The notes below the pieces were generated by a model that had not been told where the DNA came from, searched no databases, and was given only the letters and a program-made list of their open reading frames with translations. The translations under genes and the position numbers were made by a program. A stretch of 32,441 nt of DNA from Cerasicoccus arenae (GTDB lineage: Bacteria > Verrucomicrobiota > Verrucomicrobiia > Opitutales > Cerasicoccaceae): contig NZ_BMXG01000030.1 of assembly GCF_014651635.1 (NCBI RefSeq), positions 1 through 32,441 on the forward strand, written 5' to 3'. Of this stretch, positions 3,003 to 11,840 are shown in pieces; position 1 is the stretch's first letter, and every line of letters begins with the position of its first letter.

Positions 3003-5828
3003 ATGGCTGCCCGTTACAGTATTGGAATAGATTTAGGCACGAGTAATTGTGCGCTCGCATATGTGGACACAACGGCTGCATCGCCATCTACGCAGTTGCT
3101 CAATGTGCCACAATACGAGGCGCTGGGCCAGTGGCGGGAGGACCCTGTGCTGCCGTCGTTCTGCTATTTTCTAACTGATGACGAAGCGCGTGAGCTGCAT
3201 CCCGACGGAGCAGTTGAGGGAGAGCTTGCTGGGTGGTCGCATACGCGTGTCGTCGGACAGTGGGCACGGGAGATGGCGTCGCTTTCCCCGGAGCGTGTGG
3301 CGTATTCGGCGAAGTCTTGGCTCTGCCATCGAGGCGTTGACCGTGAAAGCAAATTACTGCCTTGGCAGTCGACGGTGTTGCCGGTTGATCGCAAACTTTC
3401 GCCAGTGGACGTCTCCGCTGCCTACCTCAGTTATTTGCGTGTCGTGTGGGATCGGCAGATGGCGGGCAAGGACAAGACCGCACGCTTTGACCGCCAAGAC
3501 ATTGTTATTACTGTTCCGGCTTCATTTGATGCAGATGCGCAACGGCTCACATTGGAAGCTGCGGAACGTGCGGGTTATCCTGCATCCACGCGACTCCTTG
3601 AAGAGCCGCAGGCAGCGTTTTACGCTTGGCTGGAGCGGCATCCGGGAGCGTCGGAATTGGCGACAGCCTTTCCACAGTTAAATGAGCGTCCCGAGCTAGT
3701 GCTGGTGTGTGATATTGGCGGTGGCACGTCAGACTTCAGTCTGTTTGAAGTGACTGCATCGGAGGGCGATGAGCATCCGTCGATTCGGCGACTGGCGGTT
3801 AGTGAGCATATTCTGCTGGGAGGCGATAACCTCGACTTGGCGCTGGCGAAAATGGTGGAGCCGCAATTAGCTGACGGAGGAACTTTATCTACCAGCGCTT
3901 GGGCGCAACTACTTTCGCAATGCCGCACATTGAAGGAGTGGGTATTAGCGGACCCCGCGCCAGACCCTGCCAAATTACTTCGTGTGTCGGTGACTGATGG
4001 CGGATCGAGTCTGTTTGCATCCGCTCGGAGCGCAGAGGTTTCGCAAGGAGAATTGTTGACGCTGATGCTGGATGGGTTTTTCCCCGAATGCCCGGTGGAT
4101 GCCCGACCCGCGCAAGAGCGGACAGGCTTACGCGAACTAGGGCTGCCCTATGCGCAGGACTCGGCGATTACGCGGCACTTGGCTGGCTTCCTGCGGGGCC
4201 GGCGGGTGGATGCGCTACTCTTCAACGGCGGGACGGTGGCTTCGTCTCTTTTACGCGAACGCTTGTGCGCGCAAGCGGCGGTCTGGCAGGATAACGCGGA
4301 GCCGGGGATGCTGGCCAATGACGAACCACACTTGGCGGTAGCGCGGGGTGCGGCTTTTTATCGATTTAGTGAGCGGCAGGCTGCGGGCTTGACGATTACG
4401 GGAGGCAGTGGGCACGCCATTTATTTGGAGATTCAGGGTGCAGCGCCGAAAAAGCGTCGCGGTAAAACAAAACGCAAGGATGCCCCAGTGCGCAGCGGCG
4501 TATGTATTTTGCCACAAGGCGCAGAAATCGAGGCACCAGTGCGGCTCGTGGAGCCCGAAATTCAATTGATGGTTGACCGCCCGGTGCGTTTTCAGGCCTG
4601 GACCTCTCCCTCGCGCCCCGAAGATACCGTGGGCGAGGTTGTTGATCTGGACGACGATGCATTTCACCGCCTGCCTGCGCTCACGACCTTGGCGTTGTTG
4701 CCCCCGAACGTTGAAAAACCGGAAGGCGGTAAACTCGCCGTGCACCTTATTGCGGAGCTGAATAATTTGGGGCTGTTGCAACTGGTCTGCGAAAGCGTGC
4801 GTCGGGTAGGAGACCGCCAGCGGCGTTGGTCTTTGGAATTTAATTTGCGCGAAAAACTCAATGGAGATGAGCCCATTGAGGAGACTCCTGCCGAGGACAC
4901 CGGTGCGGCTACTGAGGATTTGCAGGCGGCGCAGGCGCAGATAGGACAATGTTTCGGATTACAAAGTAATTCTGAGCCGCAGAGCGAACCAGCCCGACTG
5001 ATCAAGCAATTAGAGGACGTATTGCGGCTGAAGCGTAAGGACTGGAATACTGCGCTGTTGCGGGAGCTTTGGGAGCCATTGGGCGAATCCATCACCCGGC
5101 GCGACCGTTCGACGGAGCACGAGCTGGCTTGGCTGATGGCGGCGGGCTTCTGCTTACGTCCAGGCTATGGCCATCCGCTGGACCGTTACCGGATGCAGAG
5201 GCTATGGTTTTTACACGAGCTGGGGCTGGCACATGACCGGGATAAGGCGATTCGCGAACAGTTGTTCATTCTGTGGCGTCGTACGGCGGGTGGGCTTGAC
5301 CGAGACCAACAGGCTGCGCTCTATCATACTTGGCGGGAACGCATTTACGACGACGCCAAGCAGGCTTATGAGCCGCTGCGCATGGCTGGTGCGCTGGAGT
5401 GGCTTCCGAGCGAGGATCGCATGGAGTTAGCAAACCATTGTCTGAAGCTGATTTTGGAACGTGCCGATAAATACTGTGATCACGCAATTTGGGCGCTTGG
5501 GAGATTGCTTACCCGGACGCCTCTTTATGCCGGGGAGGGGGCTATTCTACCTGTATCGGCGGTGACTCAGGCCTTTGATCAACTTGCTAGGCTGAGCTGG
5601 CGTGACTCGCTGGCGGGCTTGAAGACGACTTTCACGCAGGCGGCGCGCCGACTGGACAACCGTGACCATGACCTCGACGAGGCGCTTCGTGGGCGAATTG
5701 TGGCGAAGTTAACGGAGTCGGGGGCCAAAGAGGATCAGCTACGACGTGTCACGACCTTTGTCCCGATCGAAGAAAAAGACCGTCAGCAGCTCTTTGGTGA
5801 GTCCCTACCGGTTGGGCTGCATTGGTAA
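3003..5828 (+). CDS. Hsp70-family protein with C-terminal DUF3731-like region
   Basis: A 941-residue protein. The N-terminal ~440 residues are an Hsp70-type ATPase: IGIDLGTSNCALAY near 7-20, TVPASFDADAQRLT near 175, CDIGGGTSDFS near 236-246 and FNGG near 407-410. A basic linker (KKRRGKTKRK, ~480-490) and a beta-rich segment to ~620 follow; an acidic, low-complexity stretch (EEPIEETPAEDTGAATE-like) leads to a helical region from about 660 to 930 that fits DUF3731, a domain known from the C-terminus of large Hsp70 relatives. It is clearly a paralogue of the first Hsp70 in this locus, with stretches of near-identical DNA. Start ATG 3003 puts the phosphate-1 loop at the expected place. Biological role unknown; chaperone-like ATPase acting with the first Hsp70 and DUF2760 is inference. 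Confidence 0.9.
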   Translation: MAARYSIGIDLGTSNCALAYVDTTAASPSTQLLNVPQYEALGQWREDPVLPSFCYFLTDDEARELHPDGAVEGELAGWSHTRVVGQWAREMASLSPERVAYSAKSWLCHRGVDRESKLLPWQSTVLPVDRKLSPVDVSAAYLSYLRVVWDRQMAGKDKTARFDRQDIVITVPASFDADAQRLTLEAAERAGYPASTRLLEEPQAAFYAWLERHPGASELATAFPQLNERPELVLVCDIGGGTSDFSLFEVTASEGDEHPSIRRLAVSEHILLGGDNLDLALAKMVEPQLADGGTLSTSAWAQLLSQCRTLKEWVLADPAPDPAKLLRVSVTDGGSSLFASARSAEVSQGELLTLMLDGFFPECPVDARPAQERTGLRELGLPYAQDSAITRHLAGFLRGRRVDALLFNGGTVASSLLRERLCAQAAVWQDNAEPGMLANDEPHLAVARGAAFYRFSERQAAGLTITGGSGHAIYLEIQGAAPKKRRGKTKRKDAPVRSGVCILPQGAEIEAPVRLVEPEIQLMVDRPVRFQAWTSPSRPEDTVGEVVDLDDDAFHRLPALTTLALLPPNVEKPEGGKLAVHLIAELNNLGLLQLVCESVRRVGDRQRRWSLEFNLREKLNGDEPIEETPAEDTGAATEDLQAAQAQIGQCFGLQSNSEPQSEPARLIKQLEDVLRLKRKDWNTALLRELWEPLGESITRRDRSTEHELAWLMAAGFCLRPGYGHPLDRYRMQRLWFLHELGLAHDRDKAIREQLFILWRRTAGGLDRDQQAALYHTWRERIYDDAKQAYEPLRMAGALEWLPSEDRMELANHCLKLILERADKYCDHAIWALGRLLTRTPLYAGEGAILPVSAVTQAFDQLARLSWRDSLAGLKTTFTQAARRLDNRDHDLDEALRGRIVAKLTESGAKEDQLRRVTTFVPIEEKDRQQLFGESLPVGLHW

Positions 5829-5852: not shown

Positions 5853-6218
5853 TTAAGCGAGGGCTGTAACGGCGTATTGGCCAACGGCGGCAATGCTGCC
5901 GAAGTCCACATTGTCCACGGAAAAAAGCGCGACTAGCGCAATCATGGTTCCGGTGGCGAGAACCATGCCCGTGAGGAATAGCCAGAAAAGGGTGATCTTG
6001 TCGTAGATCAAGTGCATGAACCACAGGATGACTGCGAAGAATTTTATGACGGACAGCACCACAAGCATGCTCATCACCAGCCATGAGGCCCATGGCAAGA
6101 AGATGATGACGATTTCAATCCCTGTCAGGACCGCCAGGAACATCGCTAGGTTGAAGAAAGTGTGATAGCGCGCATTCTCAAGAATTGCGGCTTCTTTCCA
6201 GGTTGTGGCGTGGGACAT
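5853..6218 (-). CDS. ctaF: cytochrome c oxidase subunit IV family protein
   Basis: A 121-residue membrane protein with three predicted membrane helices (about 21-42, 46-70 and 76-101), the usual size and layout of bacterial subunit IV (CtaF/CoxD type). The KFFAVILWFMHLIYDK segment is typical of the family. It is the last gene of the caa3 oxidase operon, 38 bases after ctaE on the same strand, and ends convergently 24 bases from the second Hsp70 gene. The small 13-base palindrome TAAACCGGGTTTA (5843-5855) sits between the two stop codons. Subunit IV is an accessory subunit that stabilises the oxidase in the cytoplasmic membrane. Confidence 0.88.
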   Translation of the reverse strand: MSHATTWKEAAILENARYHTFFNLAMFLAVLTGIEIVIIFLPWASWLVMSMLVVLSVIKFFAVILWFMHLIYDKITLFWLFLTGMVLATGTMIALVALFSVDNVDFGSIAAVGQYAVTALA

Positions 6219-6256: not shown

Positions 6257-7624
6257 CTAAATATACTCGACCAGATAAACGACGGTGAAGATGACAATCC
6301 AGACGATGTCAACAAAGTGCCAGTAAAGGCCCGCAATTTCAACGTCGACTGCATGGCGCGGAGTGAGGCGGCCAGAGTAAGAATAGACCAGCATTGAGAA
6401 CAACCAGAGCACGCCGATGGCGACGTGTGTGCCGTGCGTGCCAGTCATCACATAGAATGTGGAGCCGAAGACGCTGGTTTTCAGGTCGAGGCCGGGGACA
6501 ACTTGAACCTGCTTGAATTCATTCAGTTCGAAACCGTAATTGCTGTGCTTAAAGGTTTCCTTGGCTGCCTTGGTAACCTCAGCCATTGAGGTTGGGGCGG
6601 GGGTGTGAGTGTGGGGATGAGCTTCATTGTGAGTGTCTTCCGTGTGCTTCTCTGTGGCGTGTTCGTTAGGGGCTTCAGTGTGCTCAGTGCTTTCGGCCAC
6701 ATGTTCTTCGGCGGCTTCGGTTTGCTCTTGAGCGGCGGTCACATCCTTTGTTTCGCTTGCTTCGGCTGGTGCCTCTGCTTCTTCTGTGGTCTCAGCCTTT
6801 TCTGAAGCATCTGTCTTACCACCGGAGTCCGCTTTAGCCGTATCGTCGCTGGCTTCTTCCTTGGGGGCTTCTTTGGCTTCTTCAATGACGGGTGGTGGAG
6901 GAATTTCGCTCAGGACGACGACTTGGGAAGCGTGTGGGTCCGTGGGATTGTAAATATACTCGCCGTAAAAAGTTTCCGGGGCATTGCCCACTTCATCGGG
7001 TAATTCGACTTCGTATTTGAAGGTGATTGGAGGATGTGCAAGATCCGCGCCTTCGGCTGGAGTGAATGACAGCAACTCAAGGCCAAATTGTTCATGGCCA
7101 AAGCCTTCCTTGGCTGCGGCTGTGTTGGCGACATCATGGAAAAGCAGTTTGTTCTTTTCATTGCCGACAATCACCTGCCCAGCGTTGCTGGAGACCTTCC
7201 AATCATACCAGCCTTGTCCGTGGTAGAAGTGTTGGAATTCATATACCTGACCAGCCAAGAAGATGAGGCCGAAGATGATTACGCCGAAGGTGTAATTACG
7301 GAAGCTCTGGATCGCTCCTTTGTGCATGGAGGACACCGCGAGGGCCATCAGAAACGAGCTCATCAGCAGGATGAAGGTCGAGAAGGATGTCAGCTCAATG
7401 TCGAACGTACCCGTAATGTTGACAGCGCCCTCTTCTGGGTGGCCGAAGGGGTAGAGCTTGCGATAGATCAGGTGCGTGGAAATCAGCGTACCGAAGAACA
7501 TACAGTCCGACGCGAGAAAGAGCCACATAATGAGCTTCTTGTTCTCGATGCCGGTGTTGGTGTTCTGGTCGGCGTGAATTTCCTCCAGCAGTTGGTCGTC
7601 TAGCGGCGGGTTGGCGGAAGGCAT
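6257..7624 (-). CDS. ctaE: cytochrome c oxidase subunit III with a large extra loop
   Basis: Residues 31-54, 79-101 and 111-130 form the first three membrane helices and 388-415 and 432-454 the last two, matching the five-helix bacterial subunit III (QVYEFQHF, then GSTFYVMTGTHGTHV, then YWHFVDIVWI). The family is usually about 200 residues; this protein has 455. The extra ~250 residues (about 133-383) replace the short loop between helices 3 and 4, which in this family faces the periplasm. The loop has a folded-looking first part (133-243), then a Glu/Ala/Thr-rich stretch (244-305) and a His-rich stretch (306-340, eight His). The frame is open throughout and both flanks are canonical, so this is a real in-frame insertion and not a fusion artefact. 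Third gene of the ctaC-ctaD-ctaE-ctaF operon. Confidence 0.93.
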   Translation of the reverse strand: MPSANPPLDDQLLEEIHADQNTNTGIENKKLIMWLFLASDCMFFGTLISTHLIYRKLYPFGHPEEGAVNITGTFDIELTSFSTFILLMSSFLMALAVSSMHKGAIQSFRNYTFGVIIFGLIFLAGQVYEFQHFYHGQGWYDWKVSSNAGQVIVGNEKNKLLFHDVANTAAAKEGFGHEQFGLELLSFTPAEGADLAHPPITFKYEVELPDEVGNAPETFYGEYIYNPTDPHASQVVVLSEIPPPPVIEEAKEAPKEEASDDTAKADSGGKTDASEKAETTEEAEAPAEASETKDVTAAQEQTEAAEEHVAESTEHTEAPNEHATEKHTEDTHNEAHPHTHTPAPTSMAEVTKAAKETFKHSNYGFELNEFKQVQVVPGLDLKTSVFGSTFYVMTGTHGTHVAIGVLWLFSMLVYSYSGRLTPRHAVDVEIAGLYWHFVDIVWIVIFTVVYLVEYI

Positions 7625-7673: not shown

Positions 7674-9689
7674 TTAATGAGCGGCGTGGGAGGCAGGTGC
7701 GTCATGTGGTTTGTCTGCGCCTTCTTCGTGGGGGGGCTCCAAGTGATAGCCGCCGGGGCCTTCGAGCGCCCAGAGGTAAACGCCGAGGAATACCGCGCTC
7801 AGTCCAGCGATTGCGCAATAGCCCGCGTATGGCACGCCAGCGCCCATCATGGCCATCGATACGCCAAAGAAGGCGAAACCGAAGCCACAGAGCAGAGGAA
7901 ACCAGGATTGGCTTGGCATGTGGATGCCATGGCCGTCATCGGGCATATATTCAATTTTCTTGTCGCCATGCTTGTGAACCCAGAAGCAGTCGCGCGCTTG
8001 CACGATAGGTGTAGCAGCAAAGTTGTAGGCGGGAACCGGGGTAGGGGTGGACCACTCCAGCGTGCGACCGCCCCAAGGGTCGGCGTCGCACTTCTTGCCT
8101 TTAAATACGGTGTAGACGATATTGACGAAGCAGAGTAGGACGCCGATGCCCAGAATGAACGCGCCAATCGTGGCAACGAGGTTCCAGAGGTTCCAGCCCA
8201 TGTCACCAAGATACGTGTGCGTGCGGCGTGGCATACCCGTCAGGCCCAAGTAGTGCATCGGGAAAAAGGTTATGTTGAATCCGGCGATCACGAGGAAAGC
8301 GGTCCAGTAACCAAGCTTCTGGTTAAGCATGCGGCCAAAGATTTTCGGAACCCAGAAATAGAGGCCAGCCAATAGACCAAGGAGCACGCCGCCGAGGAGC
8401 ACGTAGTGGAAGTGAGCGACCACGAAGTAGCTATCCTGCTGCTGCGCATCGGCAGGAGCAGAGGAGTGCATGATGCCGGTGAAACCGCCAAGCATGAACA
8501 TCCAGATGAAGCCCAATGAGAAAACCATAGGTACGGTGAACTTAATGCGGCCGCCCCAAAGCGTGCCCATCCAGTTAAAAATCTTAACACCCGTCGGGAC
8601 GGCAATGGCCATGGTTAGCAGCGAGAAGGCGGCTGTGGCGACCTTACCGAGGCCAGTCGTAAACATGTGGTGGCTCCAAACAGCGAAGCCGAGGAAGCCG
8701 ATTACAGCGCCTGAGAAAACAATGATTGGGTAGCCGAAAAGCGGCTTTTTGGAGAAAGTTGGCAGGATTTCGGATACGATGCCCATGGCTGGCAACACGA
8801 GAATATACACTTCCGGGTGACCAAAGACCCAGAATAAGTGCTGCCAAAGGATCGGTTGCCCGCCGTTCTCTGTGCGGAAAAAATTGGAGCCAAAATAGCG
8901 GTCGAACATCAGCTCAGCTAGCGCAATGGTAATTGCAGGAAACGCGAAGATGATCAGGAAACTGGTCACGAGGGTCATCCAGGTGAAGACCGGCAGGCGC
9001 ATCATGGTCATCCCAGGTGCACGCATGTTGAGGATCGTCACAATGAAGTTAAACGAGGCTGCGAGCGAGGCGACGCCAAGGATTTGTAGGCCCACAATCC
9101 AGAAGTCCGTGCCAATACCAGTGTATTTATCCCCCGTCAGCGGAGCGTAGCCGAACCAACCGCCGGAAGGGGCCATGTCTGTGTGCACGAGGCCTTGGCC
9201 AAACCAGCCAACCGTATGTGCAAACTGGAAGAGCCAACTGATATTCAACACGAAAGCCCCAGCAACAAAGGTCCACAATGAAAAGGTATTGAGCCGCGGG
9301 AACGCGACGTCTCGGGCACCGATTTGGAGCGGTACGAGGAAATTAAAGAACGCAGCAGACAGCGGCATGACCCCCAAAAAAATCATCGTGGTGCCGTGCA
9401 TCGTGAAGAACTGATTGTATAGCTGCGCGGTGATCAGATCATTTTGCGGCACGGACAGCTGTAGGCGGATCATCAGGGCTTCAATACCACCGATGATGAA
9501 GAATAGCAGGGCGAAGCCACCATACATGATGCCGATTTTCTTGTGGTCAACGGTGGTCACCCAGTCGATCCAGCCGGTGTGTCGATCAGGCCGTGTGAGG
9601 CCCAGCAACGACTTCTCCGGTGCCAACTGTGTTTTGTCGGCGACGGCGTGGTGGTGGGTGGTATGGACTTCGGCGGTGGCGCTGCTCAT
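7674..9689 (-). CDS. ctaD: cytochrome c oxidase subunit I
   Basis: A 671-residue haem-copper oxidase catalytic subunit. Visible ligands and signatures: HGTTMIF (low-spin haem His, helix II), WVFGHPEVYILVLP (CuB His, cross-linked Tyr and the helix VI Glu, so A1 type), SHHMFTTG (two CuB His), and HFHYVLLGG (haem a3 and haem a His). It reduces oxygen to water and pumps protons. The C-terminal ~130 residues contain further membrane helices and a soluble His/Pro-rich tail. I start at ATG 9689 (MSSATAEVHTTHHH), 16 bases after the ctaC stop; an upstream in-frame start at 9734 would overlap ctaC and adds an atypical N-terminus. Operon position: second. Confidence 0.97.
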   Translation of the reverse strand: MSSATAEVHTTHHHAVADKTQLAPEKSLLGLTRPDRHTGWIDWVTTVDHKKIGIMYGGFALLFFIIGGIEALMIRLQLSVPQNDLITAQLYNQFFTMHGTTMIFLGVMPLSAAFFNFLVPLQIGARDVAFPRLNTFSLWTFVAGAFVLNISWLFQFAHTVGWFGQGLVHTDMAPSGGWFGYAPLTGDKYTGIGTDFWIVGLQILGVASLAASFNFIVTILNMRAPGMTMMRLPVFTWMTLVTSFLIIFAFPAITIALAELMFDRYFGSNFFRTENGGQPILWQHLFWVFGHPEVYILVLPAMGIVSEILPTFSKKPLFGYPIIVFSGAVIGFLGFAVWSHHMFTTGLGKVATAAFSLLTMAIAVPTGVKIFNWMGTLWGGRIKFTVPMVFSLGFIWMFMLGGFTGIMHSSAPADAQQQDSYFVVAHFHYVLLGGVLLGLLAGLYFWVPKIFGRMLNQKLGYWTAFLVIAGFNITFFPMHYLGLTGMPRRTHTYLGDMGWNLWNLVATIGAFILGIGVLLCFVNIVYTVFKGKKCDADPWGGRTLEWSTPTPVPAYNFAATPIVQARDCFWVHKHGDKKIEYMPDDGHGIHMPSQSWFPLLCGFGFAFFGVSMAMMGAGVPYAGYCAIAGLSAVFLGVYLWALEGPGGYHLEPPHEEGADKPHDAPASHAAH

Positions 9690-9705
9690 TGTCTGTATGG
9701 TGAAA

Positions 9706-11181
9706 TTATTTGAGGGACTGCAGGTAGACCGCAACTTGTTTAAATTCTTCTGGGCTTAGCCAGCCACTGACTTTTGCAAGCTCAGCCAGCTTTTCGTCGT
9801 TATCTTCCAACGGCTTGATGATACGACGGAGGGTCATTTGGTCGGAAACAATGCTGGTCAAGGGATCGCCTGCATTGGCCTTGAGTTCGGCAAGCTGCTC
9901 GTCGGAGACTCCGGCGCTCGTCAGTTGTTTGTCAGTAATGCCGACTTTGGAAAGGTCAGCGTAGGTCAGGCCTTGATATTGCAGATCGGCGAGCCCGGCA
10001 CCCATCTGGTAATACATGATGTTGTCAGGCTTATAGCGGTGGGAGTAGGCTACCCAATTCAGAAGGTTCTCTGCTTGTTTGGCCTCATCCAATCCACCGT
10101 CTTCCGTGTAATGATTGAGAATACCGGCGGCGACGGACTTGCGTTGTCCGAGCTTGGTTAGGTTTGGGCCAATAGTACCGCCCGCAGGGGAGCTGTCGAT
10201 GGTATGGCAAACGATGCACTTGCCCTTGCCCATAAATACTTGTGCGCCCTTGGTAGCGTCGTCCTGAGGGAGCGATTGGGGGTCCTGGGCGTTCTGTTTC
10301 GCCCATGCGGTCCAGTTGTCCTGATTGGTGGGGTGGGGGTTCTCTGCCGTGGGTTTGGCGGTAAAGCCAGACGGGGCAGCGGCACCTTGCTTATAATCGG
10401 CGACCCACTCATTAAATTTGTCTTCGGAAACAACTTCGGCCCGGAAAAGCATGTAGGCATGAGCCGCACCACAGTATTCCGCGCACTGGCCGAAATAGTA
10501 GCCTTCTTCATCGGCCATCAACCAGAGCCAGTTCTTGCGGCCGGGGATGATGTCCACCTTGCCACCCAGTTTGGGCAACCAAAAGGAGTGGATGACGTCG
10601 CGGCCCTTCAGGTTGAACTTTACGACCTTGCCCACGGGCATCACGAACTCGTTTGCGGTCGTGAAGCCGAGCTGAGGGTATTCAAAAGCAAACCACCATT
10701 GCCAGCCGTAGACGTTGATCTCGAGCACGTTGTCTTTTTCTTCCGGTGCGAGTTCGCCTTTTATGTAAGTGCCGAGCTTGGACTCTTCGTAGTAGGGTTT
10801 ATCCTCTGGGAGGCCTTGTGTGAACCAAATTGCGCGCAAGGTGGGAATCGCGATAATGACGAGTAGGAAGATCGACCCGCCGATTAGGCCGATTTCAATC
10901 ATTGGATTGCCGTGGCCCTGCGAAGGCATGGGCTTGGCGTCGTCGCCAGGACGTTCGCGGAAGCGGATAACCACCCAAACCAGCGCGCCACCTACCAAAA
11001 TAAAGATGCCGAGGCAGACCCAGACGGTCAGGTAAAAAAGGTCGAGCTGCTCACGTGCAACGGGCCCTTTGGGGTCTAGGCTAGACTGCGGAGTCGTGAA
11101 GCTGCACCCGGCCAGACCGAGGCTCAACGCTAGAAAGCCAGCGCGCTGAAGAAAGCGTCGAAATCGGGGTGATGTCGTCAT
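9706..11181 (-). CDS. ctaC: cytochrome c oxidase subunit II fused to cytochrome c (caa3 type), lipoprotein
   Basis: A 491-residue protein. Lipoprotein signal with LGLAGC (Cys26), two membrane helices (about 48-73 and 96-117), a cupredoxin domain with the CuA ligands H198, C233, C237, H241 and M244 (CAEYCGAAHAYM), then a cytochrome c domain with KCIVCH (C322, C325, H326). The fused cytochrome marks a caa3 oxidase. The cytochrome domain is longer than usual: after the likely axial Met (M389 or M393) there are about 80 extra residues (394-474), with loosely repeated LTYADLSKVGITDKQL / SAGVSDEQLAEL units, before the usual last helix LSPEEFKQVAVYLQSLK. First gene of the operon; a promoter-like pair lies just upstream and an azurin-like gene diverges from it. 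Confidence 0.96.
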   Translation of the reverse strand: MTTSPRFRRFLQRAGFLALSLGLAGCSFTTPQSSLDPKGPVAREQLDLFYLTVWVCLGIFILVGGALVWVVIRFRERPGDDAKPMPSQGHGNPMIEIGLIGGSIFLLVIIAIPTLRAIWFTQGLPEDKPYYEESKLGTYIKGELAPEEKDNVLEINVYGWQWWFAFEYPQLGFTTANEFVMPVGKVVKFNLKGRDVIHSFWLPKLGGKVDIIPGRKNWLWLMADEEGYYFGQCAEYCGAAHAYMLFRAEVVSEDKFNEWVADYKQGAAAPSGFTAKPTAENPHPTNQDNWTAWAKQNAQDPQSLPQDDATKGAQVFMGKGKCIVCHTIDSSPAGGTIGPNLTKLGQRKSVAAGILNHYTEDGGLDEAKQAENLLNWVAYSHRYKPDNIMYYQMGAGLADLQYQGLTYADLSKVGITDKQLTSAGVSDEQLAELKANAGDPLTSIVSDQMTLRRIIKPLEDNDEKLAELAKVSGWLSPEEFKQVAVYLQSLK

Positions 11182-11236: not shown

Positions 11237-11318
11237 AACCTAACGTAATGTGCGAACAGCGACGTCAAATTCAAGCGGAATATTGCATTCGCGATATTTA
11301 CCCTCTTTACTTTGCCTA

Positions 11319-11840
11319 ATGCGTCATACCATTAGCATATCAATTTTCGCCATTTTAATTGCCTTTACAGCTTGCGGACCCCAGCCGCCCAAGGCCGAAT
11401 CCCCCCCCTCCACTGCCGCCAAGACTACCAATGCCGCAGGTAAGCCCAGCACGACCTTCGAGTTGACGGCAGGAGACAATATGCGCTTCAACAAAGGTCT
11501 GATTGAAGTTCCAGCAGGCAAAGAGATTACCCTTACCCTGACCAACATTGGTAACATGCCCAAAGCGCAGATGGGGCATAATTTGGTAATATTGGACCTG
11601 AAAAGAAAACCACAGGCTTTTATGGCAGAAGCATCCTTCGCTAAGGAGACGGACTATATTCCGGCTGGGATGGATGATTGGATGATTGCCCACACGGAGC
11701 TCCTTGGCCCTGGAGAGTCGGACACCATCACCTTCACCGCGCCTAAGATACCGGGTGATTACGAGTTCCTGTGCTCATTCACTGGCCATTACGCCATTGG
11801 CATGAAGGGCATCATGCGCGTCGTGGTGGAAGTGCCATAG
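11319..11840 (+). CDS. azurin/auracyanin-like blue-copper lipoprotein
   Basis: A 173-residue protein. ATG 11319 gives a short lipoprotein signal ending TACG (lipid-attached Cys19), then a Pro/Ala/Thr-rich linker (about 21-45) and a cupredoxin domain. Type 1 copper ligands are visible: H87 (MGHNLVI), C152, H157 and M162 in FLCSFTGHYAIGMKG. The two-His, Cys, Met set with this spacing resembles auracyanin as much as azurin. An upstream in-frame start at 11250 would put 23 charged residues before the signal and is rejected. By family it carries single electrons on the outer face of the membrane. It is divergent from the caa3 operon with 137 bases between starts, so a role as electron donor to subunit II is plausible but not shown. 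An 8-base C tract (11401-11408) lies in the linker. Confidence 0.9.
   Translation: MRHTISISIFAILIAFTACGPQPPKAESPPSTAAKTTNAAGKPSTTFELTAGDNMRFNKGLIEVPAGKEITLTLTNIGNMPKAQMGHNLVILDLKRKPQAFMAEASFAKETDYIPAGMDDWMIAHTELLGPGESDTITFTAPKIPGDYEFLCSFTGHYAIGMKGIMRVVVEVP

Follow-up and report, generated by a model that had tools for sequence, protein, structure and literature searches.

We analyzed a window of 32,441 nucleotides, which makes up contig 30 of the Cerasicoccus arenae genome (G000 below; its family is designated f1). A cytochrome c oxidase operon lies on the minus strand of this window. The first gene, ctaC (9706..11181, minus strand), encodes subunit II with a CuA domain and a C-terminal cytochrome c domain, and the COX2 (74.6 bits), Cytochrom_C (25.5 bits), and CoxB models all scored above their cut-offs. 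A CxxCH motif is present in the CtaC translation, about 170 residues before the C-terminus. CtaC thus combines a CuA domain with a fused cytochrome c, as judged from its sequence, and the oxidase is predicted to be of the caa3 type. Downstream, ctaD (7674..9734, minus strand) encodes subunit I (TIGR02891, 687.7 bits, above cut-off), ctaE (6257..7624, minus strand) encodes subunit III, and ctaF (5853..6218, minus strand) encodes a subunit IV-like protein whose position is conserved and whose COX4_pro score of 27.3 bits is just below the cut-off of 28.9. The gene order ctaC-ctaD-ctaE-ctaF was found in the window and in six other f1 loci. A single COX3 match was detected in the C. arenae genome, which totals 4.13 Mb in 63 contigs and is 97.6% complete. 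Two further features were noted beside the operon. An azurin-like cupredoxin gene (11250-11840) is divergent from ctaC; its product has a lipoprotein-like start and scored above the cut-off of Copper-bind and below that of the azurin model, and a similar gene adjoins ctaC in G094, G069, G104, and G083. A neighbouring gene pair (421-2277 and 3003-5828), which may be DnaK-like, has matches in the same neighbourhood of G094 and G069.

The ctaE frame is open from 7624 to 6257 on the minus strand and encodes 455 amino acids, with five transmembrane (TM) helices predicted by AlphaFold2 at residues 28-57, 76-102, 105-134, 385-416, and 422-454. The protein passed the Pfam COX3 model (PF00510) with 60.8 bits against a curated cut-off of 23.8; because a long loop splits the gene, the sole matched stretch was residues 381-451. 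Residues T394, G395, H397, G398, and H400, as well as W435, H436, F437, V438, D439, and W442, were invariant across 43 sequences and correspond to the conserved subunit III motifs TG.HG.H and WHFVD..W. CtaE shares its TM core, operon position, and above-cut-off COX3 score with the five-TM subunit III proteins (CyoC, QoxC, CtaE).

Global alignment between TM3 and TM4 anchors gave a TM3-TM4 loop of 252 residues. By the same method, the loop had 11-22 residues in 99 of 101 other related loci, the remaining two being L042 (37) and L106 (47). These 101 loci comprised 23 same-order loci and 78 best-matching named records without a family label and are a set of best relatives, not a random sample; seven f1 genomes and L032 were left out of the count, and L070, whose gene is cut, has no row. 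A short loop at this site is usual for subunit III, though not strictly defining, and the CtaE of the window departs from it. The first-pass annotation had proposed an insertion of about 250 residues between TM3 and TM4 in a family where this loop is normally short, and both statements were confirmed, yet other families of the class also depart from the short loop, as described below. The annotation had set the limits of the insert at residues 133-383; its location was correct, but alignment with the short-loop CtaE of G083 gave slightly narrower limits for the insertion proper, residues ~139-377 (6494..7210, minus strand). Two PDB alignments, with the subunit III of aa3-600 and bo3, matched CtaE residues 29-135 and 376-452 as two blocks and skipped the loop; unlike CtaE, these two proteins have no residues matching it. 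Two same-genus genomes shared the arrangement, with an identity of 60-62% in the first structural module of the insert. Because these congeners carry the same arrangement, and the frame is open, the insertion is not an assembly artefact, in line with the earlier view. When searched alone, as had been suggested, the insert matched no Pfam family at E up to 1 (three queries), and a profile of its module gave only one chance-level match (E 1) against PDB sequences.

In the five-TM subunit III family, the TM3-TM4 loop lies outside, in the periplasm. The K/R versus D/E counts were 2/0 in the TM2-TM3 turn, 2/2 in the TM4-TM5 turn, 0/3 in the TM1-TM2 loop, and 17/50 in the TM3-TM4 loop. No help in assigning the side comes from the N-terminal tail (0/6), which is cytoplasmic by topology. 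The insert is therefore predicted to be periplasmic by family topology, with which the charges mostly agree, and the periplasmic placement in the first-pass annotation is upheld.

The insert is predicted to consist of a beta-beta-alpha-beta module that is present twice, with an acidic disordered arm inside the second copy. Module copy 1 covers residues 136-190 (7055..7219, minus strand). It was recognized both by the module profile (match at 7040-7219, E 7.7e-29, the window itself being one row of that profile) and in the AlphaFold2 model, with strands at 138-146 and 151-155, a helix at 161-172, and a strand at 183-189 (pLDDT 74-79, dropping to 43). Copy 2 is split into a hairpin part, residues 197-240 (6905..7036, minus strand; strands 200-207, 218-225, and 234-238, pLDDT 48-56), and a helix-strand part, residues 346-378 (6491..6589, minus strand; helix 347-361 and strand 365-375 in the model). 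Between them lies the arm, residues 241-345 (6590..6904, minus strand), whose 105 residues are 95% E/A/D/T/K/S/P/Q/G/H/N and include 23 Glu, 20 Ala, 15 Thr, 10 Pro, and 8 His; pLDDT was 33-40 across residues 241-340. The His-rich end of the arm, residues 306-340 (6605..6709, minus strand), holds the eight His that had been reported there, found at residues 308-340, and their number is not kept in relatives. The description of a folded-looking part followed by a Glu/Ala/Thr/His stretch thus agrees with both the predicted structure and the composition. Acidic low-complexity tracts of 80 residues occurred in two of 328 open reading frames (ORFs) of at least 120 aa, CtaE being one of them, in an own-genome sample of ~432 kb whose ORFs were called mechanically and filtered.

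Evidence for the second copy came from the profile, from shuffling, and from structure prediction. The module profile, built from six rows including window copy 1, matched a second copy at window 6482-6574 (E 9.5e-7) and in G069 (E 8.0e-6), although single-copy modules are among its rows, and their C-terminal flank, being orthologous to copy 2, contributes to the score. Self-alignment of the helix-strand element in the window scored 55, which none of 2000 shuffles reached; this repeat was likewise clear in G094 (4/2000), whereas in G069 (306/2000) it was not seen by shuffling but was found by the profile. Sequence support for relating hairpin 1 to hairpin 2 was weak, with 30, 602, and 266 of 2000 shuffles reaching the score in G000, G094, and G069. 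The single module of G039 was compared with hairpin 2 in the same way (105, 1, and 70 of 1000 shuffles), as was that of G104 (365, 971, and 459 of 1000). The AlphaFold2 model of the window protein, based on 43 sequences, contained the module order twice; its confidence is moderate in the first hairpin and the final helix-strand but low (43-56) over residues 161-240. The simplest form is the 271-aa protein of L032, a Verrucomicrobiia MAG, for which AlphaFold2 (25 sequences) predicted strands at 132-140 and 154-163, a helix at 166-176, and a strand at 181-189 between TM3 and TM4, in the element order of window copy 1 and with a pLDDT of 77-91 across the module block. Foldseek with the whole L032 model returned oxidase subunit III or fused I/III chains as significant matches and was uninformative for the module alone. 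A possible likeness between the module and the N-terminal hairpin of GspF gained no support from Pfam and PDB sequence searches and was rejected.

COX3 matches were found in seven of ten f1 genomes. Alignment placed the module in six of the seven genomes with ctaE, with loops of 252, 231, 270, 69, 158, and 74 residues, while the loop of G083 has 12 residues and no module; G083 encodes, in addition, a more distantly related COX3 protein (frame of 199 aa). G104 and G039 have the module without the arm, and L032 has the same frame and loop length as G039. In G117, whose module is single, the low-complexity tract sits within the hairpin, a different place from the arm of the window. The module profile was run over 384 genomes of the class, f1 contributing at least six. 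Strong matches came from three genomes of f1; the ten matches elsewhere were weak, with nothing outside f1 better than E 0.008, a 21-residue match; G094, G104, and G117 were absent from this sample, and their modules rest on alignments. The best match in 37 further chosen genomes had E 0.012. Within the samples searched, the module is restricted to f1.

The CtaD tree placed G000 outside (G104,(G094,G069)), the last fork being weak (80/55), which makes a collapse of the duplication the simplest account of the single G104 module. G083 grouped with G117 (87/88), and its short loop would therefore be most simply a loss. A short-loop clade (L033, L035, and L037) also falls inside f1 in this tree, with support of 96/92 and a long branch, and further losses of the module are therefore possible. 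Among the three double-form congeners (G000, G094, and G069), the TM core is 90-97% identical, helix-strand 2 64-70%, and module 1 60-69%, while identity falls to 35-49% for hairpin 2 and 27-37% for the arm. The NG86 omega was 0.03-0.10 for the TM core, 0.09-0.23 for module 1, 0.09-0.24 for helix-strand 2, and 0.24-0.54 for hairpin 2, where the values for module 1 and helix-strand 2 come from two of three pairs each and dS was high or inestimable in most regions. By these comparisons, module 1 is under purifying selection, and the arm preserves its composition but not its sequence.

Long loops at the same site were found in other families of the class. A COX3 match was present in 125 of 387 genomes of a phylum sample. 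All 15 COX3-bearing f30 genomes had an open frame of 537-762 aa (G332 also having a second frame of 236), and all six COX3-bearing f53 genomes had one of 455-521 aa, both measured stop-to-stop. The TM3-TM4 loops were 344-428 residues long in 10 f30 genes and 258-306 in five f53 genes (L151-L165); the f30, f53, and f35 loops were measured with other anchors, by which the window loop is 258. Conserved motifs are shared within each family by the 10 f30 and the five f53 loops, and the loops of the two families are homologous (HHalign E 6.5e-16, probability 98.6). Homology of the window insert to the f30, f53, or f35/f36 loops was rejected (HHalign E 0.46, 0.48, and 0.31, respectively; probability 0.1 for the window family against the f30 and f53 loops). 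Shorter extensions were seen in three f35/f36 genes (81-106 residues), one f101 gene (40), and one f104 gene (30). The f30 and f53 proteins thus resemble CtaE of the window in carrying 258-428 residues at the same TM3-TM4 site, many with acidic or His-rich tracts, but differ from it in that their loops are homologous to each other and not detectably to the f1 insert. Because these loops are large yet unrelated in sequence to the window insert, the TM3-TM4 site is a recurrent insertion hotspot, which extends past the window to these 15 genes.

Alternative complex III (ACIII) is a quinol oxidase that feeds such oxidases elsewhere. Its ActD subunit was detected in all ten f1 genomes (own genome, E 5.2e-62), and ACIII is therefore present in them; ActA, ActB, and ActE beside actD were named from gene order and from heme and Fe-S motifs. 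Three f1 genomes, G020, G054, and G129 (95-98% complete), have ActD and Sco with no COX3 match and therefore seem to lack the oxidase. In the genome of the window, actD lies on contig 15 and ctaE on contig 30. In nine of ten f30 and three of five f53 genomes, actD and the long-loop gene share a contig and lie 8-10 kb apart, but this closeness is not special to long loops, as actD and COX3 are 6-7 kb apart in G615 and G536 (loops of 40 and 30). A link between the insert and the presence of ACIII was rejected: ACIII was found in 10/10 f1 and 37/37 other genomes, with long and short loops alike. G083 retains both the oxidase and ACIII without the module, which is therefore dispensable.

The cytochrome c domain of CtaC is also enlarged. 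All seven f1 genomes with the gene have an extra stretch that separates the Met-ligand region from the C-terminus. The distance from CxxCH to the end of CtaC is 169-170 residues in f1 and 246 in G083 (L122:7643-9358), about 76 longer, compared with 84-128 in Opitutae- and Verrucomicrobia-labelled relatives other than L071 (184); three records from other phyla exceed 180. The extra stretch occurs both with and without the CtaE module. Neither ActA nor ActE of the f1 genomes showed insertions or deletions that follow the CtaE insert, and neither has a strongly basic net charge.

Published supercomplexes indicate where a partner could sit. The F. johnsoniae ACIII-oxidase structure is discussed in PMC8361435, PMC8552683, and PMC5928083; according to PMC8361435, its contacts go through a five-TM subunit III. 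In R. marinus, subunit I/III faces ACIII. Because the known contacts run there, a periplasmic addition on subunit III could face ACIII or the CtaC cytochrome domain. The reading that we rate highest, with a probability of about 40%, is that the insert is a lineage-specific periplasmic interface domain that touches one of these two. The ancestor of f1 would have carried a single beta-beta-alpha-beta module in the TM3-TM4 loop; in the genus of the window, the module would then have been duplicated and the gap between hairpin and helix of copy 2 expanded into the acidic disordered arm. The module would act as a protein-protein surface that caps subunit III and touches a periplasmic neighbour, with the ACIII heme wire or the enlarged CtaC cytochrome c domain as candidate partner, and the arm would tether it flexibly, with no function that depends on sequence. 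The contact and its partner, like any consequence for assembly or electron transfer, are inferred here. In favour of this reading count the module anatomy predicted in two models, with the second copy recognized by the profile; the low omega of module 1 and of helix-strand 2; ActD in every f1 genome; the subunit III contacts of the F. johnsoniae and R. marinus supercomplexes and the assembly role of the ciliate COX3 extensions described below; the extra CtaC stretch in the seven genomes with ctaE; and the large f30 and f53 loops, most of them encoded near actD. Against it stand the retention of oxidase and ACIII by G083 without the module, the presence of ACIII whatever the loop length, the similar closeness of actD to COX3 in G615 and G536, the separate contigs of actD and ctaE in the own genome, the lack of a matching indel or a strongly basic net charge in ActA and ActE, the occurrence of the CtaC stretch without the module, the lower constraint on hairpin 2, and the low confidence at which most of the window insert was modelled.

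Close behind ranks the possibility that the insert arose by near-neutral accretion, in which an insertion-tolerant loop gained a foldable piece and then a duplication and an arm, with no selected function and with weak purifying selection that prevents misfolding. The variability within f1 is consistent with such a history: loop length ranges over 12-270 residues in the family and 69-270 in one genus, the insert is absent in G083, the low-complexity tract of G117 sits at a different position, the identity of the arm is only 27-37%, and hairpin 2 has an omega of 0.24-0.54. The single module of G104, moreover, starts like copy 1 and ends like copy 2, which is what a collapsed duplication would produce. 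Against this, module 1 is 60-69% identical between congeners with an omega of 0.09-0.23, albeit with dS high or inestimable, and a long open frame is kept in all COX3-bearing f30 (15) and f53 (6) genomes, 10 and five of whose loops have family-wise conserved motifs.

The first-pass annotation had also suggested metal binding, such as copper loading of CuA and CuB. A His-rich arm that binds Cu, Zn, or Ni and loads these centres, or buffers metal at the oxidase, is an unlikely explanation of the insert. The window arm does have 8 His in 33 residues, and in the own-genome sample 8 His in 35 residues were reached in three of 328 ORFs (CtaE, ActB, and one spurious-looking ORF) and 7 in a CobW-like GTPase and two spurious-looking ORFs. 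Loops of the unrelated f30 and f53 type contain at least six His per 35 residues in 10 of 15 cases, as against 6/328 own-genome ORFs including CtaE, although the background of other genomes may differ. A His-rich C-terminal tail is also present on ActB in 10/10 f1 genomes (L185:2953-6474 on contig 15 of the own genome; L191-L199 in the nine others), where it is acidic and reaches 7-11 His per 35. Because many f30 and f53 loops and the ActB tails are His-rich too, the habit is wider than CtaE. A link between the insert and the ActB tail was rejected, the tail being found also in G083, which has no insert, and in the three genomes without a COX3 match. Within f1, however, the maximum number of His per 35 residues of the insert was 8 in G000, 3 in G094, 4 in G069, 4 in G104, 4 in G117 (5 with an earlier loop start), and 2 in G039, with no Cys, and Sco was present in 10/10 and PCuAC in 0/10 f1 genomes regardless of the insert. 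Because His richness is not conserved and Sco is present throughout f1, copper loading is unsupported, and a conserved role in metal binding is not borne out. A lineage-specific surface for attachment is thus a likelier role of the insert than the loading of metal.

A broader proposal is that, on two or more independent occasions, subunit III acquired in Verrucomicrobiota a large periplasmic domain that docks caa3 to ACIII, with the acidic His-rich arms of CtaE and ActB forming a metal- or pH-dependent bridge; we regard it as quite improbable. Still more doubtful is that the acidic arm guides a basic cytochrome or cupredoxin to CtaC, the docking of an electron donor that had been proposed earlier. 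The net charge of the loop, -33 in the window and -7 to -31 in five other insert-bearing relatives, would suit such a role, and an azurin-like gene stands next to ctaC. However, net charges were -9 to -1 for ActA (9 genomes), -8 to +2 for ActE (10 genomes), -7 to -3 for the CtaC cytochrome domain (7 genomes), and -4 to +5 for the azurin-like frame (five genomes), with ActA, ActE, and the azurin-like protein taken over whole open frames. Moreover, no azurin match was found around ctaE in the stretches fetched from G117 and G039, where the insert is present, and one was found in G083, where it is absent. No clearly basic partner is thus apparent by net charge, though one of them may have a local basic patch. 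The least probable explanation is proton buffering, also raised in the first-pass annotation, in which clustered Glu and His at the exit face take up pumped protons or spread them: the composition of the arm and the similar acidic His tails on ActB fit it, but the arm is missing in G104 and G039 and lies elsewhere in G117.

CtaE of the window is a known protein in a new form and not a new kind of system. We found no report of a subunit III with such a periplasmic module in the open-licence literature. The genome of the window resembles F. johnsoniae and R. marinus, with their ACIII-aa3/caa3 supercomplexes, in having ACIII and a caa3-type oxidase together; the excerpts on those supercomplexes mention no inserted module, and a corresponding supercomplex in C. 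arenae is hypothetical. Another case of large lineage-specific growth of subunit III is that of the ciliate Tetrahymena, where, according to an excerpt of PMC10060162, extensions of COX3a and COX3b (>400 and >200 residues) mediate supercomplex assembly on the matrix side. Unlike CtaE, Tetrahymena COX3 is mitochondrial, is encoded by a split gene, and makes its contact on the matrix side; Foldseek matches of the L032 model to Tetrahymena chains were weak (E 0.047 and 0.065). Subunit III holds no redox centre. Many oxidases lose activity during turnover once it is removed, as stated in PMC8361435. Natural variants with an added periplasmic module, together with close relatives that have a single copy or no copy, offer a direct route to ask whether subunit III also recruits partner complexes.

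A different addition was observed in L023, L026, and L044, whose CtaE has a normal TM3-TM4 loop but is enlarged by ~70-90 hydrophobic residues at the TM4-TM5 connection. This addition reads like a two-helix hairpin; other Opitutales frames of 274-343 aa are noted by length only.
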